Positions 498 to 61,467 of a stretch of DNA of 64,000 nt are shown here, one piece after another; the stretch's first letter is position 1; each line of letters starts with the position of its first letter. Source of the stretch: Forficula auricularia (taxonomy: Eukaryota > Arthropoda > Insecta > Dermaptera > Forficulidae); contig JALMQS010000673.1 of the NCBI GenBank assembly GCA_024734495.1, forward strand, positions 124,001 through 188,000. Reading direction: 5' to 3'. The notes under the pieces were generated by a model that saw only the letters and a program-made list of their open reading frames with translations, made no database searches and was not told the origin of the DNA. The position numbers and the translations under genes were made by a program.

Positions 498-581
498 CAT
501 ATTATCATAATTTCTTCTTGAAGGAGACAATAAAAGAGTGTGTCTTCTGCTGGAATTATAAATTTTATTTATTTATAACGA

Positions 582-616
582 GACTATAGTTTCGAGGGCT
601 TTGCCCTCTTCATCAG
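582..616 (-). ncRNA. hammerhead ribozyme motif, inverted partner
   Basis: This is the reverse complement of the 695-729 motif with all core bases intact: CTGATGA at 616-610, GAAA at 593-590 and GTC ending at 582. Both strands of the foldback therefore encode the same core. Confidence 0.75.
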
Positions 617-694
617 TCTATTACAATTTATTCACAGGAATTAATTTATGAATGTGAATACATGAATTAATTCCTGTGAATCCATTGTAATAGA

Positions 695-729
695 CTGATG
701 AAGAGGGCAAAGCCCTCGAAACTATAGTC
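695..729 (+). ncRNA. hammerhead ribozyme motif (type I-like, minimal stem III)
   Basis: CTGATGA (695-701) is followed by one extra A, stem II GAGGGC/GCCCTC closed by AAA, then GAAA (718-721). The next bases make a self-complementary ACTATAGT ending in GTC (727-729), the predicted cleavage point. Stem I is short and interrupted (GA/TC plus ATA/TAT). The extra base between CTGATGA and stem II departs from the textbook core. Activity is inferred, not shown. Confidence 0.75.
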
Positions 730-1017
730 TCGTTATAAATAAATAAAATTTATAAATTTAGCAGAAGACACACTCTTTTATTGTCTCCTTCAATATATAA
801 AAATTCTGCTACTCTCGGCAAAAACTTTCAATTTAATAATTTCTTCTGTTAAACCTTAAGTACTATTTCTTTATAGCTAGTTTTTAGATTTTTTTAAAAA
901 TGGCTCCAAATAGGTATTTTCTTTTTTATTTTTAATTTTTCTGTTCTTATTAGGAATGTAACTGTTTTATAAACGGTTTCAAACAATGGAGAAATTAGAC
1001 ATAGAAACCATATAATT

Positions 1018-1191
1018 GGGGGACAGGTTAGCCTAGGGGTTAGCGCACTAGCCTGCTAATCAAGTGGACCCGGGTTCGAATCCGACTCGAGGCATCTGGC
1101 TAAAGATCTGATCCCTACATATATGACATAATTTAATAATAGTATCGTAAATTGGCTGATGGCTAGAAGGGGCGAAAAGCCAAAAAAAAAA
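1018..1191 (+). mobile_element. tRNA-headed SINE
   Basis: The head contains an A-box-like TTAGCCTAGGGGTTAGCGC and a B box GGTTCGAATCC, preceded by a T-arm-like GACCCGG. The body ends GGCGAAAAGCC followed by an A-run. A second copy, on the minus strand at 23028-23201, matches from head to A-tail. Confidence 0.75.
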
Positions 1192-1550
1192 CAATTTTAT
1201 TACAATTTTGTAAATTGTTAAAAATATTTTTATAGCTGTTTTTATTTATAAGTAGGTTTAGAATTAAAAAAAAAAAATATTTAAAGTCTCGTGCAGATCA
1301 AATTATTTCTTTATAGAAAAAAAACCCATTTCTACCTTTGATTAATGGCAGGAATTTGTGACTATTTTTAATAATATTATCCATAACTCTATCAACATAT
1401 ATACTAGATATATACAGAAGTATAGATAAATTACATAGAAATAATTACAAATACACAAAAACATTGCAAAACACGTTCCTTGAGTAGATATACATGAGCA
1501 GTTTATAGATTCCAAGACATGTAGATGTAGATTTTTTTTATATAATGATA

Positions 1551-1640
1551 CTAATACAAGAAGTTACACCAAAAATGTACAACCACTGTAATCCCGCTTT
1601 GGGTCCTTTTATCTTGGAAATAAGAAGAGATTTATTGATT
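1551..1640 (-). repeat. LINE 3'-tail-like fragment
   Basis: GTTACACCAAAAATG and the following CAACC resemble the 3' tail of the LINE remnant at 34690-35010, in the same orientation. It is short and diverged. Confidence 0.35.
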
Positions 1641-2029
1641 GGGTCCGAGTTGAAGGTTAATATGTAACTAGTGTATAATAGAATAAAACTCGCAGTTGCA
1701 AAAGGGTTGTATTTTAAATTTTGATTATAATTTAAATGCCGCACTCTACTTATATTTTTATTTTTCTGGAGTCGTTTTTTAATTTTTTTATTTAATTTTA
1801 TTATTATTAATATTATATTATGCTTATGGATGGAATAATCTTTAATTATTATTATCTATTAGAGAAATTTCAAAAGATACTAATTAAATAAATCGAATTT
1901 TATTACCAACTTCTAATCTCAATTCAAGGATTTATTATTCAATTCTTTCGTTCTTTATCTAATAAGTATTTTTTCGATGATGTAACAACAATTGAGGTAA
2001 ATACTTTTTCCAAACGATGAGAACATCAA

Positions 2030-2786: not shown

Positions 2787-4115
2787 CAGGGATGTCCAAG
2801 CCACGGCCCGCGGGCCGCATGCAGCCCAGCACTGCAATGAGTATGACCCAACATAAAATCATAAACTTCCTTAAAACATTGAGATTTATATGTAGAGATA
2901 TATTTTTTTATTCTTTTTTTCGAAATATGAATGTACATTTGTACAATACGTGAAGCTTTTTTCAAGAATAAAATTTACTAAAAGCAAAATTATAAGCTCA
3001 ACTCTTTAAGATAAAAAAAAAATAATGAAGTTTCGAATTTTTAAAAAAAAAATTTCTTCTCATCTTTTCATTTTCTAAAATATTTATTATTTCAATAATT
3101 TATATGTTACGACATTAACCAACTCTATTCTAGTACAAGGAGACAAGGAATTGGGGTTTTCTAGATCAATCACAATTAATTGAAAATTTCTCTCCTGGAC
3201 TAAAACTTGTCAGGACTTATCTTTTAGATCTTTACACGTTCTTACATGTAATTAGATATTGGATGGATTATTATATCCGTGACCATTTAAAAAAATAAAT
3301 TATCATTCCTCATATCCTTCTTTAATCACATTCGATTTAAACCAGGGCTGTCCAACCCGTGGCCCAATATAAAGTCATAAAATTACTTAAAACATTGAGA
3401 TTTATATTTAGATACTGGAAAACTCACAACAATTTGGCCTGATAATTTTTTTTCTCTAAAATAAGAAATCTGGAAATCTACTGTGAAGTTTTCGAAAAAT
3501 AAAAGTGCTAATTTTAAATTTTGAATCTGGAACTAGATTTCAAGATTTCCGGAAAAATAATCACCATTTTGGTCTATTTTCGACTCCATTTTCATTAGAA
3601 ATAAATTTCCTACTTGCAAACTTTCTCATTAAATGTATAGAATAACAATTAGATACCTATCTGAAAGAAAAATTGAATATTGTCTTTATTAGAATTTTAT
3701 ATTGATTATCTAGGCAGGAAAAAATATAAATAAATACTAATACATAATATAACTTTTTGAAAGTAAGTCGGTATGTATTTACATATACGAGAAGCTATTT
3801 TTGAGTATAAAATTTACGAAAAGTAAAATTAAAAGCTCACTATGAGCTAAAAAAATAATAAAGTTCTTATTTCTACATTATTAACTTTTTTAAATAACAC
3901 ATATCAATAGAATTATAAATTACTATAGTCTCAAACAAATAAATAATATATATACAGATATATCATCTTGATATATATGTGTATATGTTTATTTGCATCA
4001 AGCAGAGGACAACCTCTTTGTTTCTCTTTGAGAATTATAATATTTTATCCGCGGTCCGTGACATTTATTTTTCTTCAAATGTGCCCCGTGTAAACCAAAA
4101 GATTGGACACCCTTG
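2787..4115. mobile_element. non-autonomous hAT element with nested insertions
   Basis: It begins CAGGGATGTCCAAGCC followed by CGGCCCGCGGGCC, and ends AGATTGGACACCCTTG. It is flanked by a perfect 8-bp duplication ATTTAAAT (2779-2786 and 4116-4123). A second left-type end (CAGGGCTGTCCAACCC) starts at 3342 with the flank ATTTAAAC, so two copies may be joined. A hammerhead-family fragment (about 3925-4032) is inserted near the right end. No transposase frame remains. Confidence 0.7.
3925..4032 (+). repeat. subfamily A fragment of the hammerhead family
   Basis: It starts in the post-cleavage region (ACTATAGTCTCAAAC) and runs through a TA-rich linker to the TTTGCATCAAGC block. The hairpin AGAGG-ACAA-CCTCT follows, then TTTGTTTCTC. 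The catalytic core upstream is missing. Confidence 0.6.
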
Positions 4116-5010: not shown

Positions 5011-5358
5011 GGAATAAAATAGATTTTATTGGACAGTCATTTTCCCCCCCCACTAAAAAACCGACGTTTCGGAAGATCTTCCCTCCTTGTTCAGGGGTCA
5101 TTGAGGGAAATAATTCCCTCTTCCCTCTTTCAGCAGTGCTCGAAATTTGTCCTTTCTCAACAGAGGATAAACAAAATTCTATTGATGCCTATGTTGAGAA
5201 AGGTCAAATTTGAGCACTGTTGAAGGAGAGAAGAGGGAAGTATCTTGTATGTTTCCTTCATTGACCCCTTTTAAACCCTGAAGAAGGAGGGAAGATCATC
5301 CGAAACGTCGGTTTTTGAGAGGGGAAAAAATGACTGTCCAATAAATCTATTTTATTCC
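5011..5358. mobile_element. foldback element with two hammerhead-like cores (family E)
   Basis: The arms start GGAATAAAATAGATTT and end with the complement. Each inner arm has a GAAACGTC motif (5063-5070 minus, 5302-5309 plus). The left core is changed to CTGAACA; the right keeps CTGAAGA. The centre is diverged. Confidence 0.75.
5278..5309 (+). ncRNA. hammerhead ribozyme motif, weak stem II
   Basis: CTGAAGA (5278-5284) and GAAACGTC (5302-5309) are intact. Stem I pairs AAACC with GGTTT. Stem II is reduced to about three pairs, so activity is doubtful. Confidence 0.5.
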
Positions 5359-8055: not shown

Positions 8056-8491
8056 AAAGGGAATTTAAAGGGCGATATTCGAATTGAGTATCATTCGCGA
8101 TATTTATATTACGATACACACACTGCTCGAAAGTTGGTTGAGGAAGATTTTAATAAAGAACATGATAAAAAAACAATAAATAAATAAATAAGACAACATT
8201 AAAAATAATAATTATTTTTTTATCACCTATTTTTATTTTATTTATGGTAACTTAAAGTATGAATGTAAGGGGACATAAATAAATAATTTAATAGGATTTA
8301 ATATAAAAACTATATAAATAAATAAAATTCTGTATTGTATGCAATAGATGTACTAGATAACTAGATACATTCGAAATATTTATGAATATATAGATAGATT
8401 AAGGCAGTCCAAAAAAAAGAAGAAGATAATTTATAAAGGCAGTCCAAAAAAAGAAGAAGATAATTTACACTATCTTTTTATTCATAAAACC

Positions 8492-8523
8492 GACGTTTCG
8501 GAAGCTATTCCCTCCTTCTTCAG
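8492..8523 (-). ncRNA. hammerhead ribozyme motif (family D)
   Basis: On the minus strand it reads CTGAAGA, an extra A, GGAGG, loop, the pairing strand, then GAAAC and GTC. The loop-side pairing is CTTCC rather than CCTCC, so stem II is one pair weaker than in the partner at 9022-9053. Confidence 0.6.
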
Positions 8524-8552
8524 GGTTTTGAAAGAGGAGACAGAGGGGAATG

Positions 8553-8952
8553 NNNNNNNNNNNNNNNNNNNNNNNNNNNNNNNNNNNNNNNNNNNNNNNN
8601 NNNNNNNNNNNNNNNNNNNNNNNNNNNNNNNNNNNNNNNNNNNNNNNNNNNNNNNNNNNNNNNNNNNNNNNNNNNNNNNNNNNNNNNNNNNNNNNNNNNN
8701 NNNNNNNNNNNNNNNNNNNNNNNNNNNNNNNNNNNNNNNNNNNNNNNNNNNNNNNNNNNNNNNNNNNNNNNNNNNNNNNNNNNNNNNNNNNNNNNNNNNN
8801 NNNNNNNNNNNNNNNNNNNNNNNNNNNNNNNNNNNNNNNNNNNNNNNNNNNNNNNNNNNNNNNNNNNNNNNNNNNNNNNNNNNNNNNNNNNNNNNNNNNN
8901 NNNNNNNNNNNNNNNNNNNNNNNNNNNNNNNNNNNNNNNNNNNNNNNNNNNN
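8553..8952. other. assembly gap of exactly 400 N
   Basis: It lies at the centre of a palindrome. The last 34 bases before the gap (8518-8551) are identical to the first 34 after it (8953-8986), which suggests overlapping contigs rather than missing sequence. Confidence 0.95.
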
Positions 8953-9021
8953 CTTCAGGGTTTTGAAAGAGGAGACAGAGGGGAATATCGCATTGGATTC
9001 CTTCACGGACTTTTCAAAACC

Positions 9022-9053
9022 CTGAAGAAGGAGGGAATAGCCTCCGAAACGTC
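9022..9053 (+). ncRNA. hammerhead ribozyme motif (family D)
   Basis: CTGAAGA (9022-9028), one extra A, stem II GGAGG/CCTCC with loop GAATAG, GAAAC (9046-9050) and GTC (9051-9053). Stem I pairs AAAACC with GGTTTT directly beside the core. All invariant core bases are present; position 7 is A, which the consensus allows. Confidence 0.75.
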
Positions 9054-9170
9054 GGTTTTATGAATAAAAAGATAGTGTAAATTATCTTCTTCTTTTTTTG
9101 GACTGCCTCATCGATATCCACTTAATTCACTTATCAGTCAGTCTCCAAAAATTACTCCAATCTTATATAA

Positions 9171-12368: not shown

Positions 12369-12992
12369 TAGTTTACAAAAAATTCTATTTGTAATGGGAG
12401 AATATTTCTCCTGAAACGTCTAGTTAAAAAATAAACGTTTTCAAGATTGTTTTATAAAAAATTTGTCATTTACATCAAGCAGAGGACAAGCTGATAGATT
12501 ACTTAAATTTTTTTGTTAAACCTACTTAAAATTTAATATTTTTTAAATTTTCTTTACTTTATTAAAATATGTTTCACACAAGAACTTACACCATTCTTAC
12601 TTAACAAAATTGATAGATTTCTCTTTAAGAAAAATATTTAGGAAAATTTGTAATTTTTAAAGCGATAGATGTTGGTTCAAGGTGAAATTTTATATGAAAC
12701 CTACCTCGTAATTTTACTTTATTTCTTATTATGAAAAAATGTTTCACCTTGAACAAACATCTATCTATCTCTTTAAAAATTACAAATTTTTCCTAAAAAT
12801 TTTAAATAATTTTTTTTTCTTAAAGAGAAATCTATCAATTTTGTTAAGCAAGAATGGTGTACGTTCTTGGGTGAAACATATTTTAGTAAAGTAAAGAAAA
12901 TTTAAAAAATATAAAATTTTAGTTAGGTTTATTTTTTAACTAGACGTTCCAGGAGAAATATTCTCCCATTATCAATAGAATTTTTTGTAAAA
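12369..12992. repeat. long AT-rich foldback containing GTGAAAC modules
   Basis: The outer arms (CTATTTGTAATGGGAG... and the complement ending AATAGAATTTTTTG) enclose inner arms with TTTCACCTTGAAC and GAAACCTACCT. GAAACGTC is present at 12412, but there is no CTGAnGA. The subfamily A block CATCAAGCAGAGGACAA appears at 12474. Confidence 0.7.
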
Positions 12993-15977: not shown

Positions 15978-16935
15978 TTTTAACCGACTTCAAAAAAGGA
16001 GGTTATCAATTCGACTGAATTTTTTGTGTCTATGTTACCTGATTTCTTCGCCAATTATGAACCGATTTCGATGATTTTTTGCATTGGATTCAGTCTAGTA
16101 CTAGATTGGTCCCGTTTTTTTGGCATTGGACCTTTTTTGATAGGTATGTTCAGGCATAACTTCTTTGTTTATAAACAGATTTCAATGATTCTTCTTTTAT
16201 TAGAAAGGGGGTACCTTAGGGATTGTCCCATATTAATTTGGTCAAGTTCTGATGATAAGATCAATGACGAAATAACTTAAATCTCCAATTCTTATGAGCA
16301 AATAATCGAAATTATAGTAAATAAAATCTTTTATAAAAATAACATTCTTAAAACGTTCATTTAAAACCCGCAAACGTTTCGAGAGAATTTCTATATTTAT
16401 GAATTGAATTCTTTCATAATTTTCTTATTCATTCGCCCGACGCTTTCTCTTACGAGATGCATATAGAATAATATCTTAAGTCACTATTAATAACATCACT
16501 AAAAAAAAAAAAAAAAATTATAAAAAAAATAAATAAAACCGACTTCAAAAAAATGGAAATGGAACAAATAAAATAATAAGAACTCAAAAATCAAATAAAA
16601 TGCACTAAAGGGTATAAAATAATTATCTAATTTAGTTATAACTAAACGACGAAATTTTTACATGAAATCACTTTTTGAAGTCGGTGCTAAACAAACTATA
16701 TAAGCCAGCTTGCGCGATTTTGTCTTCATTACCCGCCAAACGTACTAAGTGAGATTCATAAAATGTATGTTTGGCACCGACTTCAAAAAGTGATTTCATG
16801 TAAAAATTTCGTCGTTTAGTTATAACTAAATTAGATAATTATTTTATCCCTTTTTTGCATTTTATTTGATTTTTGAGTTCTTATTATTTTATTTGTTCCA
16901 TTTCCATTTTTTTGAAGTCGGTTTTATTTATTTAT
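15978..16935 (+). mobile_element. composite repeat with ACCGACTTC ends and terminal foldback
   Basis: It starts TTAACCGACTTCAAAAAAGG, runs through a diverged body, then a foldback (16538-16925) whose arms begin and end ACCGACTTCAAAAA. The copy at 30306-31015 has the same body and foldback in the opposite orientation. An 84-codon open frame here is not conserved in the other copy. Confidence 0.65.
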
Positions 16936-17380
16936 TTTTTTTTTTTATAAATTTTTTTTTTTAAATAATCAATTTAACAAGAATTAAGTGTTTGTATTAA
17001 TACTTGTCGAAGTTTGTTATTAGTTTATTAGATTGTGAGTAAAATTATTCATCATTTATGAAAGTTAAAGTGTACTTTAGAAAGTGTTTTAATATATTAA
17101 AGTAAATATGTTAAAGTTGGTTAATTCATTTAAATGACAAATAATAATTGTATAATTTTATGAGTACTATAGTAACCGTTATAATTTCATTATGTCCACC
17201 CTTTCGTCTGTTTCATAGGCTTGTAGTTGGTACAATTTTCCAACTATGTGATAAAATGACATTTAATAAGACTATATAATAATAATGATAATAATATATA
17301 CCATATATTGGTCAATTAAGAAAAGATTTTATATTATTATGCTTTAAAATTTGAGAAGTTAATTGTTTAGAAAAATTAAA
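16936..17380. other. AT-rich intron, nothing recognised
   Basis: AT-rich sequence with no clear feature. Confidence 0.5.
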
Positions 17381-18212: not shown

Positions 18213-20230
18213 CAAAAGAATATACGAATGTGGTCACCCATCCAACTGCTCTATATTTTGTTTCTACAATATAATTTTTTTATATTAAACAGCCCACGGC
18301 CGTGTCAGGATCTTTTAATGTAAATAAAACATTTCGAGAGGGATTTTATAAATGGATTCCAGATTCCGATTACACTTGTTGGTTATTATTTATATTAATG
18401 TGTTTTTTATCTCAAGAGTGATTTCTCAATTTGCAAGCCTCTCAACGATTCTTGTTGTCATGTTTTACACAGTTCTTCCTTTTATTTTTATCCCCCCCCT
18501 AGTCATTTTTTAATATTTATGCTTCAAGTATAGATAGTATTATAAATAAAACAAGCATTAGCATTAATGGCATTTGCCCCCCTCTCTCTTTTCGAGAGAA
18601 TGAAAAATGCACAGTTGTTTGTTTCATTTCTGAAGCTACCCCCACTTCCAACCCTTTCGGTACAAATAACAAAAACAAAGCGGGCAAGGCATTTCCACGC
18701 TAATCATAATAAATGGACAAATGAGAGGGAAAAAGATAGGATATTGCGTTGGAGGGGGGATTTGTATAGTTTTCAGGAAAATATGCTTTTAATGTGTCTA
18801 TATTCATGTTTGTTTTATATCATGTTCAATAAACATAGGAAAAAAAAAATACAAAAAACAAATAAGAACAAATAGGGAGGACGGGTTTAGAGGAATGAGA
18901 ATATTAAAATTACAACAAAAAGATTTTCGAATTGTTTTTTTGCAACTGCAATCGTATAGAAAGTACTTCTTTTGTTTAGTTTTCGTACTCACTAAGAATC
19001 CATCATTTGGAATTTCAGGACTGACGGATAGACAATATGGAATTTGAATAATTATCGGAAAAGAGGTTTTTTCTTTAATTAGTTTTTTCCTCTTATTAAA
19101 AACAAGGACTAAAAAGATGATCAAGGACAGTCGATGGTGGAGAAATCTCCGGAGTCGAAGCTCAAATTCAATGTATACATTAATTCATGTAAAATAATTG
19201 GTTTAATAATAATTTGGAATTTCAATTCAGGATAGAGATCTTTAAAAAAAATTACCATAAAATAAAGACAGCATGGTTTTCGAAATTTAATATGATAAAA
19301 ATGTAAACTTTTCAAGACTCCGTACGCTTTATGCACAGGCAATTTTCTTGATGCCGAATTTTTTCCCCCAAAAAAACCTAATTTCGGCATTTGTTTTTGT
19401 CTATTTTTTTTGCGATTGTGTTTATTAAAAAATAATTATAGCTCGAACAGGGACAGTGGGGTCAGGGGTGTCACCTGGCCCCCTGAGAATTTTTCTACGG
19501 GGTCAAGTAGGTCAGCGGCCTAAAGAAAGAAATTTTACCGTTATTTTACCCAAAACCAAATTGTTGGTTGTAAAATTAATGTTATACTATTATCTGTTTG
19601 CGTTAACAAAACCTAAAAACGTTAGCCTAATAATTCCTAGTTACATAAGTTCATTACTTATATTTGCTAAGAATAATACAAGTATATATTGCTAATTAAT
19701 TTCATTGCGTTGAGCTCGAGTCCTAAAGCTAGGAAACATATTATTTTGTAAAAAAAAAACAACAACAGCGTACCGTACGGCGTACCGTTGATTTTTCTTT
19801 TATTGCCATGTTAATCCATGATTTTAAATTAGAACGTATACAGTGAATAATTTTCACTTGCGCTCTTTTTTGGTTACAATTAAAATTTAATAAATAAAAG
19901 ATGCGGTTTTAATATCAAAATCTAAATTAATTGTAAAATCACTAAAGTTTTAATTAACTTATTATCGAAAACAATGACACAAATAAAACAAACTACTAGC
20001 CAATTACCTTTCAAGTAATATTCATTATTAAAATATTAATAAAAAAAAAGTTTGCGCAGAAGTTTCTTATAAATTTTATAAACTTTTTAATGGTGTTTTG
20101 TAAAAAAAAATTAATTGAGTGCATGGGTTCCGTAGTTTTTACCTGAGGACCCTTTGAAGTCGCGCTTGCCGCGAGACCGATTACAATACTTTCCTCATGC
20201 TTCGCATTGGATAAAGAAAAAAAAAAATAC
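18213..20230. other. intron with no supported feature
   Basis: Mixed AT-rich sequence. The 102-codon frame at 18567-18875 and others here have no domain, no conserved splice context and low-complexity ends. Confidence 0.4.
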
Positions 20231-20236
20231 AATTTA

Positions 20237-20405
20237 TAATTGAAAAGTTTTTGTTTTGCCGAGAGTAGTAGAGTTGTTGATTCACAAAGAGAAACAAAGA
20301 GGTTGTCCTCTGCTTGATGCAAATAAACATACACATATACGTGTATGTTTATTTGCATCAAGCGGAGGACAACCTCTTTGTTTCTCTTTGACAATTTATA
20401 ATCAC
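20237..20405. mobile_element. foldback of subfamily A with AGAGGACAACCTCT hairpins
   Basis: Left arm: terminal AATTGAAAAGTTTTTGTTTT, GCCGAGAGTAGTAGAG, then AAAGAGAAACAAAGAGG and the GCTTGATGCAAATAAACAT block. The right arm returns the last two blocks after a short TACGTGTA centre. It lacks the catalytic core. Confidence 0.75.
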
Positions 20406-20591: not shown

Positions 20592-20852
20592 TTATTGTAA
20601 GAGTTCGTGGCTGTGATGAAACTATACTAGATGAAGGAGGAGGTATCAGGCAAAGATGGAATCACTGGGTTCAATAAAACACATTTAATGAGACGTTTCG
20701 GCCTAAATTTTATTTGGCCATCTTCAGTCAATTAGGAGTTATACACAAAATGCGCTACACATATGTGATCGAACCAAGCCTTGTCAAAAATAAAAATTTC
20801 TTTTAGCTTCATGCGAATTTTTAACGTGCCTGGACCCAAAAGTTTCAGAATG
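20592..20852 (-). mobile_element. hammerhead-bearing retroelement insertion with 11-bp target duplication (family F)
   Basis: This 261-bp insert sits inside another repeat and is flanked by ATAAGTTATTA on both sides (20581-20591 and 20853-20863). It holds one complete core and the GTTCGTGGCTGTGAT block shared with the 56.4-kb copy. The duplication and the absence of inverted ends point to RNA-mediated insertion. Confidence 0.65.
20692..20727 (-). ncRNA. hammerhead ribozyme motif (family F)
   Basis: On the minus strand: CTGAAGA, an extra T, stem II GGCC/GGCC with a 12-nt loop, GAAAC and GTC. Stem I begins TGA/TCA and is then interrupted. Confidence 0.65.
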
Positions 20853-23318: not shown

Positions 23319-23370
23319 AAATGGGCCACTGAGGAAGTCGAAATAAGTCGACGAAACGTCTGGCCCATTT
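23319..23370 (+). ncRNA. hammerhead ribozyme motif with complete stem I
   Basis: Stem I is a perfect 10-bp pair: AAATGGGCCA before the core and TGGCCCATTT after the cleavage point. The core is CTGAGGA (23329-23335), an extra A, stem II GTCGA/TCGAC with loop AATAAG, GAAAC (23353-23357) and GTC (23358-23360). Stem III is only the self-complementary ACGT, so cleavage would be favoured in a dimer. It is a single copy, not a foldback. Confidence 0.85.
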
Positions 23371-25440: not shown

Positions 25441-25446
25441 GTTTTT

Positions 25447-37072: not shown

Positions 37073-37404
37073 AGGGTGTTTCAGGAGGAATAGTACATAT
37101 TTTAGGAGGTGGTTGTATAGACGAATTCCAATAGAAAATGCTATATAAAATGTGTCCAATTTTTATTGAGTACAGTTAATTGATATTGAAGTTTTCATTG
37201 TGATTTGTTGGCCAAGTCTACTGTACTGTAGCGTGTAAACATGTCCTATTTATTTACACATGCTGAGTATGCCGATATTGGGTTACATACTAACTTTGTC
37301 TCTGTACTCAATAAAAATTGGACACAAGTTATATGGGATTTTTTATTGCAATTCGTCTATACTAGCACCTCTTAAAATATTTACTATTCCTCCTGAAACA
37401 CTCT
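37073..37404. mobile_element. MITE/foldback with GGGTGTTTCAGGAGG ends
   Basis: CAGGGTGTTTCAGGAGGAAT and complement flank about 330 bp. Inner blocks (CCAATTTTTATTGAGTAC and its complement) also pair, so the arms are about 80 bp. Inserted beside a subfamily A fragment. Confidence 0.7.
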
Positions 37405-38082: not shown

Positions 38083-38094
38083 TATAAGTATATA

Positions 38095-38257
38095 TTGAAG
38101 GAGACAATAAAAGAGTGTGTCTTCTGCTGGAATTATTATGAGACATATATGTAATATGAATAAATTTTATTTATTTATAACGAAACTATAGTCTCGTTAT
38201 AAATAAATAAAATTTATAATTCCAGCAGAAGACACACTCTTTTATTGTCTCCTTCAA
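38095..38257. mobile_element. foldback of subfamily B with hammerhead core deleted
   Basis: Same ends as 518-793 (TTGAAGGAGACAATAAAAG). The centre retains only ACTATAGTCTCGTTATAAAT, so CTGATGA and stem II are lost. The terminal CTCTCGGCAAAAACTTTC follows at 38278. Confidence 0.75.
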
Positions 38258-38320
38258 TATATATAAAAATTCTGCAACTCTCGGCAAAAACTTTCAATTT
38301 AATAAGTATATATATATATT

Positions 38321-38888
38321 CATTTAAATTTGAAAAATTTAAACAATACATTATTAGATTTGAATTGTTAGCGACAATAAAAAACGCAACACTAGGATCA
38401 TTTAAATATGGCTTCCATTCTTAAACATGACAAAGCCATCGCCTGTGAAAAATCTTTCAAATTTTCATTAATTTATTATATATATTTACATTTTTCATTC
38501 AAATATATTTTATTTAAAATATTTTTGAAATAATATTCTAATTCAAAGGTATATGCTTTTAAATCATAAACTAATTTTCAAGTTAAAGTTTGATAGATTT
38601 GCATTCATTAAATTGAGACGAATTCTCAGTGGGTGTGATATCTAATTAATAATAAAGGAATAAACATACTATATCAATATTTCAAACGAGTATGAATAAA
38701 ATATAGCAACGATCTGTTGCAGTTTATTTAATATTCTCAAATGTTTTGATTTTTGGCTTTTGTCTTTTTGGTAAATGAGTGGCTGAAAAAATTAGAATAT
38801 AAATAGGGAATATATATTTTGAAATAGTCTGTCTTTAGAGAGAATTGAGGAGAAAAAAACTATACATTCAAACTAATATACTATGATA
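38321..38888 (+). repeat. direct repeat of about 570 bp, copy 1
   Basis: CATTTAAATTTGAAAAATTT to CTATGATA matches 41585-42154 with scattered changes and small indels. Part (AACGATCTGTTGCAGTTTAT) also occurs inverted at 10340-10430, so it is a dispersed element. Confidence 0.75.
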
Positions 38889-38894
38889 TATTTT

Positions 38895-39420
38895 TGATAT
38901 ATATGTGTGTATGTTTATTTGCATCAAGGAGAGGACAACCTTTTTGTTTCTATTTATGAATCAACAACTATATACCTATATATAAAATGATTTTTATTTT
39001 TTTCTACTATGGCTTACCTTTTTTCAAAATTTGAAAAGGTACTAGTATTATAGGGAAATAGATAAGGTTTGAAAAAAAAATAGTTTCATAATTGTGCCAA
39101 AATTGTATCATGGTTAAAAATTGAAATTAAAAGAAAAACATCTTTTTTCAAGGATCTGATTAACCTATAAATCTCATAATTTTTTTCCCTAAAAGATATT
39201 ACCAGTCCCCAAAACATTAAAAATTTAGATCAATCAGTTCGGTCAATCCTGAGAATTTTTTTTTCTGTTTTTACATATTTTGCTTTTTCTCAAAAACCAA
39301 TTCAGTTAGGGATCTGAAACTTTCAGGATCTTATTATTTTATTAGTACCTACATATTCCCTAAATATCATTAAATTATCTTTCGGGGGCCGATTCAGTTT
39401 GCTTATAACCTTTATAGCCT
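38895..39420. other. subfamily A fragment then AT-rich intron
   Basis: GTTTATTTGCATCAAGGAGA and the TTTTTGTTTC block lie at 38905-38965. The rest shows nothing. Confidence 0.45.
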
Positions 39421-40180: not shown

Positions 40181-40792
40181 GTAAGTTTATATTTAATGTT
40201 ATTTTAATAAAATTTTGGTGTCAGATTAAGATTTTAAAATTGTTTTTGGGATTAATCTCTACTTTTCTCATTTAAACATAACATTTCGGCTTCAATTTAT
40301 AAAACGTTGTAGGTAGTATAAAATCAGTATTAAAAAAATAGTTAATTTTTTCTCTAATAAGCTTAATATGATTTTTATTTTTATCTATTAATCTCGTTTA
40401 ACACATTTCTATTATTCCCATTCAAATAGTTCTCTAGTATAGGATAGATATAAATTTGCTTGCTCTTTTAATTGAGGAATATTTTCTAAAGCTTTACAAT
40501 ATGTGTTAGTGTTAGTGAGAGTGGCCTAAGAGGCTTCCATTCTCCGATACGAGTCCTAACTTGTTTAACGAGGATGAATCTAGGAGTGCCCAAATTCGGG
40601 AGTTTCTTTTTTCTATTAATTCTTTATTGTCGAATTAATTTGGATTGAATAATTTTTTTAATATAATTTTCTTTTCTTTTCGATAAATTTATTTTTTTAA
40701 ATATATTTAGTCAAAGCGAATAAATTTGTCTATTTTAATTTTCTTATTTCAATGAGTACATATAGTGAGAAGTCTGAATAAAATTATTTCAA
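40181..40792. other. intron, one GC patch related to the preceding segment
   Basis: Only the 40520-40600 patch is noteworthy. Confidence 0.4.
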
Positions 40793-41076
40793 TTAAAAAT
40801 TTTTGTTTTGGCAAGAGTAGCAGAGTTGTTGGTTCATAAAGAGAAATCATTGAAGTTATCCTCTGATTGATGTAAATAAACATATACATATATATCAAAA
40901 TATAAAATGGTATATATATTGATATATATATATATATATATTATACAATACATATTCATATTTTGATTTACATATATGTATATGTTTATTTGTATCACTC
41001 AGAGGATAACTTCAATGATTTTCTTTTATAAATCAACAACTCTACTACTCACGTCAAAACAAAAACTTTTCAATTA
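40793..41076. mobile_element. foldback of subfamily A
   Basis: Terminal AATTAAAAATTTTTGTTTTG, AGAGTAGCAGAGTTGTTG, ATTGAAGTTATCCTCTG and complements surround a TA-rich centre. No catalytic core. Confidence 0.75.
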
Positions 41077-41135
41077 TATACATTATACATATATATTTAT
41101 ACAAAATATAAATATACATTGAGTGGATATTGATT

Positions 41136-41322
41136 AGGCAGTATAAAATTCAAAAAAAGAAGAAAATTGAAAGATCTTTTTATTCATAAACCTACGTTTC
41201 GAAGGAAATCCATCCTTCACTGACCTTTCAAAACCCTGAAGGAGGGAATAAGCCTCCGAAACGTCGACTTATGAATAAAAAGATGTTTCAATTTTCTTCT
41301 TTATTTGAATTTTGGACTGCCT
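41136..41322. mobile_element. foldback of family D with damaged hammerheads
   Basis: Ends AGGCAGT and GGACTGCCT as in 8437-9108. The plus motif (41236-41265) keeps GGAGG/CCTCC and GAAACGTC but has lost three bases from CTGAAGA. The minus motif is further decayed. Confidence 0.75.
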
Positions 41323-41584
41323 CATCTATATACATTCAATTCACTTATCAGTCAGTCTCCAAAAATTACTTCAATCTTATATATATTATATATTTGTTTC
41401 AGACTATAAATTCGATGAAATTTTTTGGTACGCGGATACAAAAATGTTTACTTCCAGTGGGGTAGTTTATATTACAGTTTTTTTTTTTTATTTATTTTTT
41501 ACCATACCTGTCTAAATAGCAAGGCTTGAGAAAGTCTTCACTTTTACCTCCAATTGAAAAATTTAATTCTATTCACTTATTATT

Positions 41585-48159: not shown

Positions 48160-49330
48160 AATATTCTTGTTTAGACTTGTCATTAATTAACTTTTATATA
48201 AAATATGTAATTAATCCACTTAGATTGGAGCATCCAATTTCAATTAAATCTTTTGTACGTAAACAAAAGGATTAAAATTACTAAAGTAAACATCTCCTTG
48301 TATTTATATATCGTTGTTTTTGATTTAATATAATTTCGTGTCAATTTGAACCGGGTGGAATAATATCTATATATAAAAAAAAATAGCAACAAAAAAAATT
48401 ACAAGCAGACCGCAGAGGACTCAACAGGAACATGAAATGCTAACAAATTGTTTAAATACGCGGATGGTTTAGTTTAATTTAATGAACGCCATTAAAACCA
48501 AACATGAAAAATAATAATAAAAAAAAAAGTATAAAATAAAATTAACAAAAAAAAAAAAACAACAACAACTAGATATAAATTACTTTTTTTGTTGTTAGCA
48601 TGTGAACTAAAACATCAACAACAAATCATAAATTGAACACTTCCGAACTTTTGCTTAATACATTTCGTAAAGCAAGAAAACAATTCAGAAGGGGGAATTC
48701 AAATATTTCTCAAAAAACTAATTAATATTAACCAATATTTTCTATTTATTTATTTTTTATTTTTTTATAAATCATTCATTTATCATTTACTGAAACAATG
48801 AAAATTTTTTTTATAATAAATTGATGATGGGGATTCATTAATTTGATTGATTATCGGTGTATCGATAAATATATAATTGACGTTAGGGATTGTATGTTTT
48901 GAATTCAATAAAAATTTATTAATTTGGTACTTTTTAAGTAGTTGAATATAAAAAACAAGCATTTAGTTCTATAAAGTAATGAAAATTTAAAAAATTTTAA
49001 AAAAATTCAAAAAATTTTGCGAAAACTACCTAGAATTTGTATATTTTTAAAATCTTTTAAATTTTTTGTAAATTTTCATTACTTTATTAAAATATGTTTC
49101 ACCAAGAACCTACACCATTCTCTCTTAATAAAATTTAGTTATATATTTAGAAAATTTTAATATTTAAAATAAAGTAGCAACCTATATTATTTAGAAAATT
49201 TTAAAGAAAATGTATTACATATAATATTGTTTTAATATATCAATGAATGGTTTCTTAAAATGAGGCTACTTTCTATTTAGAGAAATTAAAAATAAATTAT
49301 ATTAGAATCTGTAATGGCTTAAGGAATTAT
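48160..49330. other. AT-rich intron
   Basis: TTTCACCAAGAACCTACACC (family C-type module) at 49098; otherwise nothing. Confidence 0.5.
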
Positions 49331-49378
49331 TTAGCCAAAGCAAGGATGCACCGGGTACAATAAAACTCCCAGAATAAA

Positions 49379-49413
49379 GACGTTTCGGCCTGAATTAATC
49401 GGGCCATCTTCAG
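49379..49413 (-). ncRNA. hammerhead ribozyme motif (family F)
   Basis: CTGAAGA, extra T, GGCC/GGCC stem II, GAAAC, GTC. Stem I pairs AATAAA with TTTATT and, past a small internal loop, CCC with GGG. All core bases present. Confidence 0.75.
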
Positions 49414-49548
49414 TTTATTGGGATTTATATGTTATACATATTACCATGTACATGTAATTTTTCTGGTTTTGTCAACAATAAGAAATTTAACTTCATATAT
49501 TTAGTGTTGTACTGGAGCCCAAGATTCAGAGACTCATCACCCAATAAA

Positions 49549-49583
49549 CAGAAGATGGCCCAATAAATTCAGGCCGAAACGTT
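49549..49583 (+). ncRNA. hammerhead motif, inverted partner, damaged
   Basis: CAGAAGA replaces CTGAAGA and the cleavage triplet is GTT rather than GTC. GGCC/GGCC stem II is kept. Probably inactive because the core U is lost. Confidence 0.55.
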
Positions 49584-50049
49584 TTTATTCTGGGAGTTTT
49601 ATTGTACCCGGTGCATCCATGCTTTGGCTGAACAGCCACGATCTCCAACAAAATTTATATTAGAATATTCATTTTCTTGCAAGAAATCCTTAAAAGACGA
49701 TTCATAAACGATTTTTTCGTTAATATGATATTTTTAAAATGACATTTAAGGGTGAATATTATTGTTTTTTTTTAATATTCAATAAATTTCCATGACATAT
49801 GATGCTTGTTAAAAACTTCTAAACACAACACAGTTCGTCGAAGTTTCCACTATAAAATCAACTCCTTTTGATATAAATAAATTCTTTATGACCTGAAAAC
49901 AGATTTACGAGAATATTAAGCTCTCAACTTAATAGCTAGTTTCTATTTTTTTTCTTCATTCGTTCTAAGTTCAACAATTATAAATTTCCCTTCACAATCC
50001 TACGAAACTACTTGTTCTTTAACAAGTTACAATAATTTTCTTTCCCTAA

Positions 50050-52978: not shown

Positions 52979-53219
52979 ATATACATATTTATATTTGATA
53001 TATATGTGTGTATGTTTATTTGTATCAAGCAGAGGACAACCTCTTTATGAAAAATTATTCATCCGCTGAAGTATTTCTTCATCTCGAAATTACTAGCATC
53101 AATAAACTCTACCAAAACTTTGGTAAATAGTTTGAGAAATTAATGTTTTGGGATTAGAACACACTATCTAAAAATCTATTTAAATAAAAGATTTGTTTTT
53201 TATTTATTTATTTTTTTAT

Positions 53220-53981: not shown

Positions 53982-54564
53982 GGTAGTTCTTTAACAAATG
54001 CAAAAATTCAAGAAGTCTTCGAAACTTGGAATATAAATTATTAAAATCATAATAAACAGACTGTTAAAATTTGAAGACGATTTACAACACCAAACATGAA
54101 ATAATTCCAATTAAAAATGAAATTTTTTACATATGGTAGATTAATGTGAAATAAATGACCTAGAATCCTTAACTCATAGTAAATCAATATTAAATATAAT
54201 ATTTATTTACTCTTATCTTTATTAAAGATGTTTCACCTTGTACCAACACCACAATCTCTACTAATTATATGGTAGATTGGGAAAGGGTGGCAAAATGATC
54301 ATTATTTTATTTTTTTTCCATTGTAGGACTTTCACCATCTTGATGAAAAATCAATATTTGTTAGAATAATATATTCGTTTACTTCGTAGTTTTGATAAAA
54401 AAAAAAAAAAAAACATATTTGGGCGATTATTTTTAGTGGAGGGGATATAAGAACAATGGCTTGGAAACGATCCATTCATAAAGAGGATATAGTAGTGTGC
54501 GAAGTACAGTCAGGTTAAAAAAACATAACCTAAAATTTAACACTGTTGATATGTATAGAGTGGT
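53982..54564. mobile_element. TTAA-type element, third copy, right end missing
   Basis: TTAA followed by GGTAGTTCTTTAACAAATGC. The body matches 35608-36248 inverted. The arm of the 18-kb foldback (54142-54223) is inserted. It passes into a TCATCATCATCATTGAG tail before the gap. Confidence 0.6.
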
Positions 54565-55017: not shown

Positions 55018-55154
55018 TTGAAGGAGACAATAAAAGAGTGTGTCTTCTGCTGGAATTATAAATTTTATTTATTTATAACGAGACTATAGTTTCGAGGGCT
55101 TTGCCCTCTTCATCAGTCTATTACAATGGATTCACAAGAATTAATTTATGAATG
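55018..55154 (+). mobile_element. single arm of a subfamily B hammerhead element
   Basis: Begins TTGAAGGAGACAATAAAAG as in 518-793 and ends after GAATTAATTTATGAATG. The returning arm is absent. Confidence 0.8.
55082..55116 (-). ncRNA. hammerhead ribozyme motif (subfamily B)
   Basis: Identical core to 582-616: CTGATGA, GAGGGC/GCCCTC stem II, GAAA, ACTATAGT stem III, GTC. Confidence 0.75.
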
Positions 55155-55720: not shown

Positions 55721-55777
55721 CCGTATAATTTTATTATTAAACAACAAAAAGGAAAAATCTTAATAAATATGCTATAG

Positions 55778-55830: not shown

Positions 55831-56502
55831 CGGTCCTCAAAAATATTAGCTTGGGCGCGTTCATCATAAGGCTTCATAAAGCGTACGTTATGGAAAACTA
55901 TGATTGATGTAATTTATGTGAGAAAACAGTCCGATTTTTATTACCTTTCGTTAAAAGTATAATTGCTAAGCTAGGTACTTTAGTTTTCTTAAAAAATGGT
56001 ATAGTAACAGAGTGGATGTCGAGCCAGATTTGAGAATAAAATTAACTTCTTTTCCTTCTAATTTAGAATTATTATGTGATAAGTAACAACATCATCTTTT
56101 ACAGCAACCACGCAAAAAATATATCTTCATTCGCATTCTTAAATTTTCATTTTCTTAGATAAATAAATAGTTTTTTTTCTTTACTTATAATTTGCAGTTG
56201 GCTCGAGTTTAATAAACTGTAAAATTTAATTAAACCCATTTATTTAATATTTATTATTTGATTGACAAATGCGTCACATATAACACGCCAATAATGATTC
56301 ATCTTTACAGCTAAGTCTGGTAATTTACTTGTATGGACGATATGAACACCCATGCGATCAAAAAGTTTTTGGACATTGTGAAACATGAATAAATATTTAA
56401 AATATTGTTGGAGATCGTGGCTGTGATAAATTTGTAGTGGGTTGAAGGAGTTATTCAGTCAAAGCAAGGATGCACAGAGTCCAATAAAATTACCAAAATA
56501 AA

Positions 56503-56537
56503 GACGTTTCGGCCTGAATTTATCGGGCCATCTTCAG
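56503..56537 (-). ncRNA. hammerhead ribozyme motif (family F)
   Basis: Intact CTGAAGA, GGCC/GGCC stem II, GAAAC and GTC. Stem I pairs AAATAAA with TTTATTT, then CC/GG after a bulge. Confidence 0.75.
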
Positions 56538-56750
56538 TTTATTTGGAATTATACACATATTACCATAAGTACATGTGATTGTTCTTGGTTTTGTCAACAA
56601 TAAGAAATTTAACTTCATATATTTAGTGTTGTGCTGAATCTCTGAATCTTGGGCTCCAACACGAAATATATCAAGTTAAATTTCTTATTGTTGACAAAAC
56701 CAGGAACAATCACATGTACTTATGATAATATGTGCATAATTCCCAATAAA

Positions 56751-56784
56751 CTGAAGATGGCCCGATAAATTCAAGCCGAAACGT
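56751..56784 (+). ncRNA. hammerhead motif, inverted partner, altered
   Basis: CTGAAGA is intact, but stem II is GGCC/AGCC and the cleavage triplet is GTT. Confidence 0.55.
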
Positions 56785-56964
56785 TTTTATTCTGTAAATT
56801 TTATTGGACCCAGTGCATCCTTGCTTTCGCTGAATAACTCCTTTACCCCACCACAATATTTAAAATAATTTAAAATATAACGTTTTCATTTTTTTGTTTT
56901 AGCTTTAAAAGTTCAAGATATTTTTATTTAGTTTCTTTTCATTGTACCCACAATTTTTTCCCCG

Positions 56965-58260: not shown

Positions 58261-58379
58261 CGAATTTATAGAAAATGAAATATAAAAACTTTTTGAAATA
58301 AAATAAATCAATTGATAATAATTTCATATACCTAACTATTTACTATAGCCCAGGCAAATTAGACCGAAAAAAGGACGCC

Positions 58380-59082
58380 AAGCTGTAAATAATTTTAATT
58401 GACATTAGGCATCTCAAATAGAGTTATATGAGTTTGCGACGGTTTCTGGATGGTGCTAAATTTTTGAGGGCTTAAAATTCAAGAAAATTTTGGACTTTTT
58501 TCAGATTTTCGCTTATATCTCGAAAATTATGCGTCCTACAGAAAATTTTACTCTCCCCAAAATGAAAGACCATAATCACACATGAATCAAGTTTCTAGGA
58601 TGAGTGGTTTTTATTTTATGAAGGAAAACTGCATTTTTTTTTTCAAAAACTTCAACCTCATTCGGGTTCGGGTTACAATTACCCAATTAAGATAAAACTC
58701 ATTTTTTAGCCAATTGGCAACTATTAGGGGTCAGCACAGCAAAATTTCGAAAATTGACCACCTAAAAGGTCATAATTCACATTTCCGCCAAATTGATAAA
58801 AATTGCCTATATTTGACGATCGATTGTGCCTAAACAGGTGAACCGATTTTAAATTTTAAGTAGATTATTCGACGCGGAATTTTATGATTTTTTATTTTGA
58901 TAATGGTAAAATTTTATGTAGGACATATCGTTTTTAAGTTATAAGGGAAAATCTGAAAAAAGTCTAAAATTTTCGTGGTTTTTAGGCCCTTAAAAATTTA
59001 GCAAAAGCCAGAAACCGTCTCAAACTCATATAACTCTTATTTGGGATGCCTAACGTCGATTAAATTTATTTCCATCTTGTGC
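58380..59082. repeat. old foldback, diverged arms of about 200 bp
   Basis: GACATTAGGCATCTC... and GATGCCTAACGTCG..., plus AGTTATATGAGTTTG and its complement, show inverted arms with many differences. Confidence 0.65.
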
Positions 59083-59621
59083 ATATTTTTTATTGGCCAA
59101 CAGAAGTCCAATTTTCCCGGACTACTATTAATTTTGGTAAAAAAATACTTTATAATTTCTTATTAATTAATATTTTAGTTCATATTGGTCTTTTTTTATA
59201 TATTTACGCGATTGGGTGTCGAGTAAAAATTTATCTGGCGAAAACGAGTGAAAAAAGTTTAAAAAAAAGCTCTGTTAAAGATGACGTTTATTACATTACC
59301 AATGAGGTGAATATCTATCTTCTGACATGTAATAAAAATCATTCATAACAGCTTGAATACAGTATAAGATAATTTTGTGATTTTTTCCAAAAACTTTATT
59401 CGAATGTAAAAATATCATTCAAAGTATAAAGATATTTTTTTTTTTAATATTTATTTTCATATGTGTATTTTATTTAGTATGTATAGAATGAATTTGTTCG
59501 TATCAAGTTTAAACAAGCTCAGACTTGTTTAATCGAAATGGAATAAATTTTTCACATGAATACTTTTAAGATTTCCCTTTTAACTACTGGGAATTTGTAC
59601 AATAACTACTCATTTTTCCAG
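59083..59621. other. AT-rich intron
   Basis: An 89-codon frame at 59079 is AT-rich without domain; nothing else. Confidence 0.4.
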
Positions 59622-59764
59622 GGTTCAGAGTCCACTCTTCACTACCAACCCATCCGCCCTTGTCCCGTGGAGCTGTGAACCCGTCAATCCAAACGGCGCT
59701 ATTAAGGAAGGACCCTCATCAGTGAACTGTCCAATTGTTTCGCCTGGATCCACGCGTCTTCCAG
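59622..59764 (+). other. exon-like segment, 143 nt
   Basis: CTCATTTTTCCAG precedes it and GTGAGATTT follows. One plus frame is open throughout (VQSPLFTTNPSALVPW then SCEPVNPNGAIKEG). GC content is well above the flanks. No family recognised. It lies antisense within the upstream kn intron. Confidence 0.35.
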
Positions 59765-61256
59765 GTGAGATTTTTTCTATTTTTTTTAATTACTCGATAT
59801 GTCCGGGAAGTAGGATTTGAAAGATTTTTAACTAGGTTACAGGCTAGTTTGTTGACCTATGGTTAACTTGTGTGGGGATCAAAATAAGTGAGAGATGCTG
59901 TCATTTTAGGCTGCAGTTTTGAGTGGTGACCTGGTGACAGTTATTTGATTTAGCTGGTAGTCAAAGACATTCGTGAAATTGACCCAAGGTTGACCGTGAT
60001 CAGTTAACCCATATTTAATGGACTTTCGAGTCACCCCTAAAGTATCATTAAAGGGAGACTAATCAGGTGGAAAATGACATGTATTGGATTCAAAGAACTT
60101 CAAACTGATATGATGTTTGATTTCCGCAAATTCTACAGATGGTCTTTGGAGGAGGTAACTTTGACAGAATTTGAGCTGTGCTACTAATAATTTTCGGACT
60201 TTTATTTTTCGAAATATCAGGATCGTGCTGGAAGCATACAGAAAGTTTGAAATAAAAAAGGCCTTTAGTTCCAAAACTGAATTTTATTAATCAAATAGGT
60301 ATTATTACTTAATTTCGAAGAGTCTTATTAAATCTAGAAAATTCAGAATTATCAAGAAAAATAAAGTTTACAATATAATAAAATAAAATTCTTCAATATT
60401 AACTGAATCTCGGCAAAACAAAAACTTTTCAATTAAGTGAAGATGTAATATTATACTCGTATTTATTATTGTATTGTATGTTGAGCTTTTTTTATGTATT
60501 TGCTCTTGGGTGCTCTGGAAGGTACGTTTCTTAAAATTTCTGTTTACACATCTATAAGAATAAAAGGGTTTTAATATGAAATCCCCTCTTTAATTATTAT
60601 AATCATAATTCATTTAATAAGATCTCACTATATAAGCGTTGAAATGGATCTTAATAAATGTTAGAGCTATTAGATTAGTATGAAATTAATAATTAAAGTA
60701 TATCACTTTTAATATTTTGTTAAGTAAATTTAATTTTCAATTAAGTTGTTGCAAAATGACATTCAGCCTCTTTCCAACCCTTCTTTGGAAGAGTTCTACT
60801 TAAAATTCGATTAAAATTCATCCAATTTTATAGGCGGATTCAATTACAGTGAAGTTTCGTAAATAGACCTAATATAATATTAAGAAAAGTTTCGTTGAGT
60901 AATTCAAAGTATAAAATTTTCTTTTTGGAAATATTAATGCCATAATCTCAATCCAAATAGAAGTAAATTGTGGATTCACATCCTTGGGTTACTAAAATGC
61001 AATTATAATTAGATTGCGATTGATTGTAATTTTGATTTTTTACAAATTGTTTTATAATTATTAAAAGAATAATTTTCGTTTTTAAAAACTTCAGACATGG
61101 TATCGACACCAATAAGGTCTGGTCCTTAACCAGAATTATGTTAAACTTTTTTAAATTTATTTCACTTTAAAATGGCAATGTGAGAGATACAAAGTGTCCA
61201 TTTTTTGTGTGATTTTTGTTGCTTTCGGCTTTCAGTAATGGCTTAAGCTAAATTTA
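59765..61256. other. intron, nothing recognised
   Basis: GTTGACC-type words recur near 59850-60010. A terminal fragment of the hammerhead family (CGGCAAAACAAAAACTTTTC) lies at 60411. Confidence 0.45.
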
Positions 61257-61380
61257 GGGTAACTTTTAAGGAGTTAGGTGTTGTTCTAGGTGAAACATTT
61301 TAATATAATAATAAAACTAGAGCAGGATGCAAGGTAGGTTTCACAAAAAAAGAAATAAAACAAAATTGAGTTTTGAATTC

Positions 61381-61410
61381 GATATATTTCGGGGGTGAGC
61401 CCATCATCAG
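61381..61410 (-). ncRNA. hammerhead ribozyme motif (family C)
   Basis: Minus strand: CTGATGA, extra T, GGG/CCC stem II with 6-nt loop, GAA, then self-complementary ATATAT and C. Stem I is weak. Confidence 0.6.
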
Positions 61411-61437
61411 GAGTCAGAGAAGAGTTTTCTCTGACTC

Positions 61438-61467
61438 CTGATGATGGGCTCACCCCCGAAATATATC
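61438..61467 (+). ncRNA. hammerhead ribozyme motif, inverted partner (family C)
   Basis: Plus strand copy of 61381-61410, identical core. Confidence 0.6.

Follow-up and report, generated by a model that had tools for sequence, protein, structure and literature searches.

Penelope-like elements (PLEs) are described as carriers of minimal type I hammerhead ribozymes (HHRs) with little or no helix III, which act as dimers (available parts of PMC7761336, PMC6155905 and PMC6466107; after Cervera and De la Pena 2014 and Lunse, Weinberg and Breaker 2017). The purified enzyme of the anole PLE (PAc) cuts and extends both target strands, two start sites of its reverse transcriptase (RT) bound the tail, and HHR-dead RNA is inserted in vitro, no reads ending at the cleavage site (PMC11167929). 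A tail on one side only, on one of two inverted pseudo-long terminal repeats (pLTRs), has already been described for Adineta (PMC3846280, in the part available). In this literature PLE insertion, the origin of inverted pLTRs and the function of the hammerheads are treated as open questions. Here we analysed a stretch of 64,000 nucleotides from the earwig Forficula auricularia (GCA_024734495.1, contig JALMQS010000673.1, positions 124,001 to 188,000, forward strand; hereafter the window), in which several families of short, mostly palindromic repeats carry HHR motifs. These motifs are minimal type I HHRs, not a new ribozyme class, and very probably lie in the pLTRs of many PLE families. It is highly probable that most of the repeats bearing them are truncated PLE insertions, produced by priming from both sides of a staggered cut.

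Hammerhead motifs in the window and in the host genome

The window is AT-rich and dense in long imperfect palindromes. Scanning both strands for CTGAnGA followed by GAA, a palindrome running from A to T and H (position H17), with no stem demanded, yielded 13 distinct perfect-core motifs, the CUGAnGA...GAAA core and H17 being present in 13/13 by construction, since the search pattern defines the set. All 13 follow the same order, namely CTGAnGA, one extra base, stem II, GAA, a palindrome of 4, 6 or 8 nt and H17, and in all of them stem III is a loopless, self-complementary palindrome. This palindrome is ACTATAGT in three copies (616-, 695+, 55116-) and ATATAT in two (61410-, 61438+), while ACGT occurs in families E/F (5278+, 8523-, 9022+) and D (20727-, 49413-, 56537-, 56751+) as well as in a single copy (23329+). 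Ten of the 13 HHRs lie within arms of long imperfect palindromes, each facing outward from the centre.

Stem II reaches 3 bp or more in 13/13 motifs when one extra base is allowed for, and in 0/13 with either zero or two, so that every motif departs by one base from the type I consensus, where stem II comes right after A9. The position of the extra base is constant and its identity is not (A in three families, T in two). In 300 dinucleotide shuffles, the core plus palindrome was expected 0.51 times per window, and 0.03 times when a stem II of 3 bp or more, placed after one extra base, was also demanded. No further perfect-core match with stems appeared in the window when the palindrome requirement was dropped, nor any perfect-core HHR with a looped stem III; two additional copies (49549+ and 5094-) carry a single core change. 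No Rfam family reached its gathering threshold on the window and no hammerhead model matched at E values up to 5, the sub-threshold matches to miRNA precursors reflecting the long hairpins.

The elements concerned are the following (window coordinates, with strand where one applies; TSD, target-site duplication).

519–835: family A head-to-head element (palindrome 518–793, right tail 794–835), TSD ATAATTTCTTCT at 507–518 and 836–847
582–616, minus strand: HHR in the left arm of family A, extra base A, stem III ACTATAGT
695–729, plus strand: HHR in the right arm of family A; the same HHR and the same 8 nt upstream follow the GIY-YIG frame in genomic locus L076
3922–4035, plus strand: main PLE family, truncated pLTR copy that runs from 8 nt before the cleavage site as far as the short end
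5011–5358: family E palindromic element, HHR at 5278–5309 (plus) and left-arm HHR at 5094 (minus) with G8 changed
8437–9108: family F palindromic element interrupted by an N gap, HHRs at 8523–8492 (minus) and 9022–9053 (plus)
20241–20390: main PLE family, pLTR palindrome with a left tail and with truncation 3' of the HHR in each arm, TSD ACAATTTATAAT at 20229–20240 and 20391–20402
20692–20727, minus strand: HHR in a single arm of family D, extra base T, stem III ACGT
23329–23360, plus strand: single-copy HHR (23.3 kb), 11-bp stem I, stem II GTCGA/TCGAC, stem III ACGT
36012–36122: family C, truncated insertion made up of a tail piece and a right arm that stops within stem II, TSD CAAATATTTCAT at 36000–36011 and 36123–36134, found by eye
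38096–38301: family A, insertion whose right arm stops at the 3' strand of stem II, TSD ATAAGTATATAT at 38084–38095 and 38302–38313
41118–41340: decayed family E/F palindromic element with mutated HHRs
49309–49654: family D element, HHR at 49413–49379 (minus) and right-arm HHR at 49549 (plus) with one core change, TSD TTATATTAGAAT at 49297–49308 and 49655–49666
55018–55154, minus strand: family A arm adjoining an N gap, HHR at 55116–55082
56404–56854: family D palindromic element, HHRs at 56537–56503 (minus) and 56751–56785 (plus), left end tailed and right end short, TSD AATATTTAAAAT at 56392–56403 and 56855–56866, found by eye
61261–61542: family C palindromic element, HHRs at 61410–61381 (minus) and 61438–61467 (plus), left tail, TSD decayed with 7 bp shared

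An empty-site paralogue of the 36012–36122 insertion lies near 54096–54142. Besides the copy at 3922–4035, other truncated pLTR copies of the main family lie at 31571–31621, 37017–37073, 38871–38969 and 52979–53046. HHR-less palindromes or fragments at 12517–12931, 34482–34600 and 48971–49087 resemble, by eye, the tail-like ATGTTTCACC...AGAACC...ACACC of family C and of the 23.3-kb copy. Two related palindromes (16500–16963 and 30279–30672), with CACCGACTTCAAAAA and AT-rich ends and with neither HHR nor TSD found, perhaps belong to a different kind of inverted repeat. A tandem array with a period of 29 nt occupies 25385–25768.

Covariation was computed on 8 distinct rows from five families, covering six stem I and three stem II pairs. 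Paired bases fill 88.9% of the stem cells, and the covariation score of 0.82, reached by 0/500 shuffles, drops to 0.36 and 0.18 when the register is slid by one position. Changes on both sides occur in 8/9 stem pairs, a count reached by 8/500 shuffles, and all eight rows have G-C as the first pair of stem II. Moreover, the HHR is better conserved than the remainder of the repeat in 6/8 old arm pairs (one-sided p<0.05; the comparisons share arms and are not independent), the other two showing no significant excess, one of them perhaps through misalignment. Minimum-energy folds show stem II in 4/5 window examples and match the modelled stems I and II only for the 9022 and 23329 copies; in families A and D stem I paired differently, and the ATATAT family did not fold as a hammerhead. 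RNAcofold of HHR homodimers returned extended duplexes, which are uninformative on the pseudoknot-like dimer fold.

These repeats are real hammerhead ribozyme motifs. The first-pass annotation had proposed a single hammerhead design common to families with otherwise unrelated repeat bodies, characterised by a palindromic stem III, a compensatorily changing stem II and an extra base at a constant place. The design holds, with 13 motifs against ~0.03 expected by chance; the bodies are indeed unrelated across families, and compensatory change is present in stem II and also in stem I. Of the two outcomes it had named against itself, neither a lack of stem II covariation nor a core decaying like the rest of the repeat was observed.

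The same design is abundant in the 1.06-Gb host genome, where the pattern CTGANGATN{10,40}GAAACTATAGTC matched 15,715 times (reversed control, 0) and CTGANGAN{12,40}GAAACGTC 33,253 times (reversed control, 27). Among the first 100 matches listed for each, HHR pairs within ~1.3 kb, counted by eye, were outward-facing rather than inward-facing in a ratio of 18 to 1 and 19 to 2, respectively. The CTGANGAN pattern does not fix the register, and one extra base was found in 84 of its first 100 matches listed (A 72, T 11, G 1), the remainder comprising 13 without a 3-bp stem II, two in register 0 and one in register 2. At the fetched loci L012–L060, cores with a 3-bp stem II had one extra base in 48/55 cases (T 41, A 7), two in six and none in one; T as the extra base is largely fixed by the fetching pattern both there and in the CTGANGATN-pattern matches. 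Other arrangements were also seen. Rare inward-facing HHR pairs occur at L035 (G000:C4:4943600-4944760), an 871-bp palindrome that is perhaps a nested or tail-to-tail copy, and at L108; HHR copies with a AAGGGTCAAGCCTT stem II at L051 and L053 are flanked by direct, not inverted, pLTR repeats; and G000:C4:1022704-1023098 holds four direct copies of the ACGT type in a satellite-like spacing of ~118 bp.

Penelope-like elements carrying the motifs

The link to PLEs comes from HHRs that stand beside coding regions elsewhere in the genome. At L033 a 5'-truncated coding region, with a YVDD motif and a GIY-YIG domain, lies between head-to-head HHRs; the domain matches Pfam PF01541 over the cut-off (E=6.6e-7), and the RT piece, without a Pfam match itself, has 23 homologues, five of them with RVT_1 and one with PF01541. 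A search for GIY-YIG, in which 150 of 3,423 candidates were scored, retrieved the domain (PF01541 over the cut-off) in open frames of up to 864 aa, and a YVDD-type RT motif was present in 8/8 fetched long-frame loci. L081 is a tandem PLE array with an HHR every 2,909 bp, at the unit junctions, separated by frames of 858 codons (stop to stop) that encode YVDD and GIY-YIG in the same frame. L083 is a full-length element with head-to-head inverted pLTRs, a 12-bp TSD and one tail. At L076 the HHR following the GIY-YIG frame has the sequence of window family A, which is also present at L074, 3' of another HHR, and ACGT-type HHRs accompany L063, L064, L071, L077 and L078. In total, 14 of the best 20 GIY-YIG loci contain 17 HHRs, 17/17 in the one-extra-base register, and in the other six no HHR was found within ~3.2 kb.

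Because HHRs sit together with RT/GIY-YIG frames at L033, L081 and L083 and with a GIY-YIG frame at L076, the motifs of the main family and of family A are PLE hammerheads. The remaining window families very probably have the same origin, and most window copies look like extremely 5'-truncated, head-to-head PLE insertions.

Insertion ends and the making of head-to-head copies

The outer ends of the copies were studied in elements of the main family, 29 loci being mapped to one genomic unit. Among 20 loci listed with a single HHR, nine had a clear head-to-head partner, and these nine plus L056 were included in the mapping, leaving out L040, L045, L047, L048, L051, L053, L054, L055, L057 and L058. 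Seven loci were dropped before the count (L023, L029, L031 and L052, from a subfamily aligning only at the HHR; L035, inward; L038, unclear; L056, one arm), thus leaving 22 readable two-armed copies. In 21/22, one outer end falls at +101 to +111 from C17 (+91 in L027) and the other at +144 to +154, that is, at a "short" and a "tail" start site ~45 nt apart; one copy is short/short (L026) and none is tail/tail. With independent use of two equally likely sites, 21 mixed copies out of 22 have a probability of ~5 in a million. The inner ends of the mapped arms range from -1171 to +47 and are mostly unequal between the two arms, apart from symmetric junctions that gather at a near-palindrome close to -87.

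In a wider set of 97 arms from non-overlapping loci, 50 outer ends were tail, 44 short and three other. A single arm (L107:1111-1260) starts at the HHR cleavage site, i.e., 1/97, or 1/114 with overlapping loci; 32/97 arms have their end within the HHR or downstream of it, so that an intact HHR in the arm itself was not what brought them into the set. The idea that HHR cleavage sets the 5' ends is not supported, and cleaved RNA is not the usual template, in line with the in vitro report on the anole element. In 12/97 arms the start lies at +43 to +48, in an AT-rich stretch.

The ends are bordered by TSDs, mostly of 12 bp in the main family, where flanking words of at least 11 bp were found in 13/18 elements versus 2/306 swapped flanks. 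For the ACGT families, TSDs of at least 12 bp were found in 9/19 elements versus 7/342 swapped flanks; one of them (L102, 17 bp) is not credible, and the other eight measure 12–15 bp, with element ends differing by 27–49 nt in all eight. The full-length L083 has its 12-bp TSD at ends 104 and 149, and 5/8 ORF-bearing loci (L069, L073, L083, L086 and L088) show a word of 12–14 bp at such ends, a count made with no swapped control. In the window, several palindromes, some of them lacking an HHR, are bounded by exact direct repeats of 12 bp and carry a one-sided tail of ~38–46 nt. At a score of 12, TSDs were called in 5/21 window palindromes versus 4/420 swapped flanks with the third version of the script, a count that depends on the filter (3, then 5 of 21; at a score of 10, 7/21 versus 27/420); beyond these five, TSDs were recognised by eye at the 56427–56862 palindrome and at the truncated copy 36012–36122.

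Source variants are common to both arms, so the two arms of an element derive from a single transcript or a single locus. Indeed, in 18 elements the arms differ at six shared-state positions versus 59 private ones, while random arm pairs show 3.3 shared-state differences each, and an origin of the arms from RNAs of different loci is not supported by these counts.

The start-site pairing and the TSDs, together with the extension of both strands by the anole enzyme, make target-primed reverse transcription from both ends the simplest process, and the copies appear to record insertion at both ends of one DNA break. The PLE enzyme (RT plus GIY-YIG endonuclease), a predicted dimer by analogy with the purified anole protein, would make a cut staggered by ~12 bp. 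Each target end would then prime a cDNA templated by pLTR RNA, with one cDNA starting at the short site and its partner at the tail site ~45 nt further on, and the two cDNAs, halting at independent points, would be joined into a head-to-head palindrome with an outward HHR per arm, one tail and a TSD.

Several observations weigh against this interpretation or narrow it. None of ten window ORFs compared with Pfam gave a match, no PLE frame being found among them, and no ORF was seen beside the exact HHRs of families C, D, E/F and the 23.3-kb copy, whose connection to PLEs is based on the HHR, the arrangement, the tail and the TSD. Sampling covered the first listed contigs and elements that retain a recognisable HHR in one arm or both. 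A clear TSD is missing from 5/18 main elements and 11/19 ACGT elements (L102 discounted), no TSD word was found at three of the eight ORF-bearing loci (L084, L085 and L087), and TSD length varies from 12 to 15 bp in the ACGT families. Besides the short/short L026, the window palindrome at 40791–41075 seems two-tailed, and the TSD reading of L027 (128/144) conflicts with its mapping (91/151). Finally, an idea taken from the anole PLE, i.e., the extra base as the U of a start codon, is possible for the GATGG families and fails for the ACTATAGT family, in which an AUG across the extra T meets an in-frame TAG within ACTATAGT; that reading is not transferable to this family.

Other routes to an inverted copy account for part of these data. 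In the snapback proposed for rotifer Penelope (PMC3846280, in the part available), a single cDNA folds back and copies itself into the inverted arm, which agrees with the source variants shared by both arms and with the gathering of inner ends at near-palindromes (18/97 at -80 to -94). In L033, L044 and L050, however, the longer arm starts at the short site and lacks the tail, and the tailed arm lacks the inner sequence of the longer one, so neither cDNA contains all of the other; the pairing of one short with one tail end in 21/22 copies is also at odds with self-priming, which we consider very unlikely. Even less credit can be given to animal retrozymes, which are small, non-autonomous and tandemly repeated, contain type I HHRs and propagate via circular RNAs. 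Known from metazoans (PMC7229834, in the part available), they have the same ribozyme type, a similar size (~170–400 nt) and a low GC content, and the direct array of four ACGT-type HHRs at C4:1022704-1023098 has their look. Against the tandem repeats of ~150–400 bp that characterise them, copies here are mostly inverted (the 18:1 and 19:2 ratios given above) and have TSDs and a one-sided tail; arms starting at the cleavage site are nearly absent, and so is, in the window, any perfect-core HHR with a looped stem III. Foldback or miniature inverted-repeat DNA transposons that captured hammerheads would have inverted repeats, a short length and a near-fixed TSD length, as seen here, yet the full-length version, whose ends and TSD are the same, codes for RT and GIY-YIG, and the arms show variable 5' truncation and asymmetric ends, which makes this origin extremely improbable.

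As for the ribozyme itself, its palindromic stem III suggests that the HHR would cleave as a dimer, and the likeliest role is the processing of tandem PLE transcripts by putative dimeric hammerheads. Alternatively, and compatibly with a PLE origin, the hammerheads may be relics maintained by copying, with no catalytic role; insertion of HHR-dead RNA by the anole PLE, with no reads ending at the cleavage site (PMC11167929), and insertion ends that ignore this site here (1/97) both speak for it, but families of otherwise unrelated sequence preserve the core, both paired stems (I and II) and the palindrome, with compensatory changes, and we judge it rather unlikely. A more speculative possibility, compatible with the data but of low probability, is that the palindromic stem III acts as a coupling device, whereby two pLTR units of one (tandem) transcript would pair into a double hammerhead and load a dimeric RT-endonuclease, each cut end being primed at a different site and both sides being built at once. 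If true, it would explain why start sites are not independent, why the arms have one source, and why stem III stays self-complementary in every family while changing in sequence and length.

Comparison with known systems

Both the ribozyme type and the element are of known kinds. The novelty implied by the first-pass annotation does not survive, since the motifs are of the PLE hammerhead kind already known and one-nucleotide insertions beside CUGAnGA are within the range of known hammerhead alignments (PMC10085705, in the part available); hammerhead-like motifs with an extra U occur in IMG/VR too. In the open-access literature searched we recognised no description of a large ORF-less set of head-to-head PLE copies with HHRs, of a genome-wide constant extra base or of paired start-site use; the likeliest primary papers lie outside it and we claim no priority. 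With ~49,000 matches to two HHR patterns, many in short, readable, TSD-flanked insertions, plus long-frame PLEs, this genome allows the mechanism to be approached by counting (how start sites pair, how long the stagger is, where truncation falls, whether templates were ribozyme-cleaved), and its hammerheads, which have an extra core base and a loopless, self-complementary stem III, form a natural series.

The IMG/VR loci (L001–L007) share CTGAnGA-T-GGCC...GGCC-GAAACGTC, the extra U being fixed by the search pattern, and none reached the Rfam cut-off. The two that were folded (L002 and L003) differ in having stem I plus a hairpin stem III, with stems I, II and III all folding. IMG/VR scans with a GGCC stem II and ACGTC gave seven matches with an extra T, two with no extra base and one with another extra base; the GGAGG family gave 0 matches. 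A GTDB scan matched one Paenibacillus contig.

Among animals, the type I HHRs of newt and axolotl satellites and of metazoan retrozymes (PMC7229834) likewise have a weak helix III, with dimer action in amphibians; unlike the copies described here, they are associated, in the part available, with tandem arrays, circular RNA and loop-loop contacts. HHRs borne by repeats of Aedes, Nematostella and other species (Perreault et al. 2011, PMC3088659) are alike in their palindromic stem III (stem/loop III there) and in the dimer model, and differ in that the parts of that paper covered give no PLE or head-to-head context. The closest ribozymes are the minimal type I HHRs of PLEs, also located in pLTRs, with little or no helix III and expected dimer action; their arrangement is tandem in the available part of PMC6466107 versus mostly head-to-head pairs here. 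The copies here have a constant extra base and a stem III that is strictly self-complementary over 4–10 nt, traits that may already be known from PLE hammerheads.

The closest elements are the Penelope of Adineta (PMC3846280, in the part available) and the anole PAc (PMC11167929), which share an ORF with RT and GIY-YIG, tandem or inverted pLTRs, a one-sided tail of ~30–45 nt and a TSD and, in PAc, the HHR; the inverted-pLTR layout of L083 is indeed that of Adineta Penelope. Unlike in both of them, many copies here are ORF-less palindromes, and the start sites, ~104 and 148 nt past the cleavage site, precede the first Met of the long L081 frame. The TSD, finally, is mostly of 12 bp in the main family of F. 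auricularia versus 8–10 bp in Adineta.

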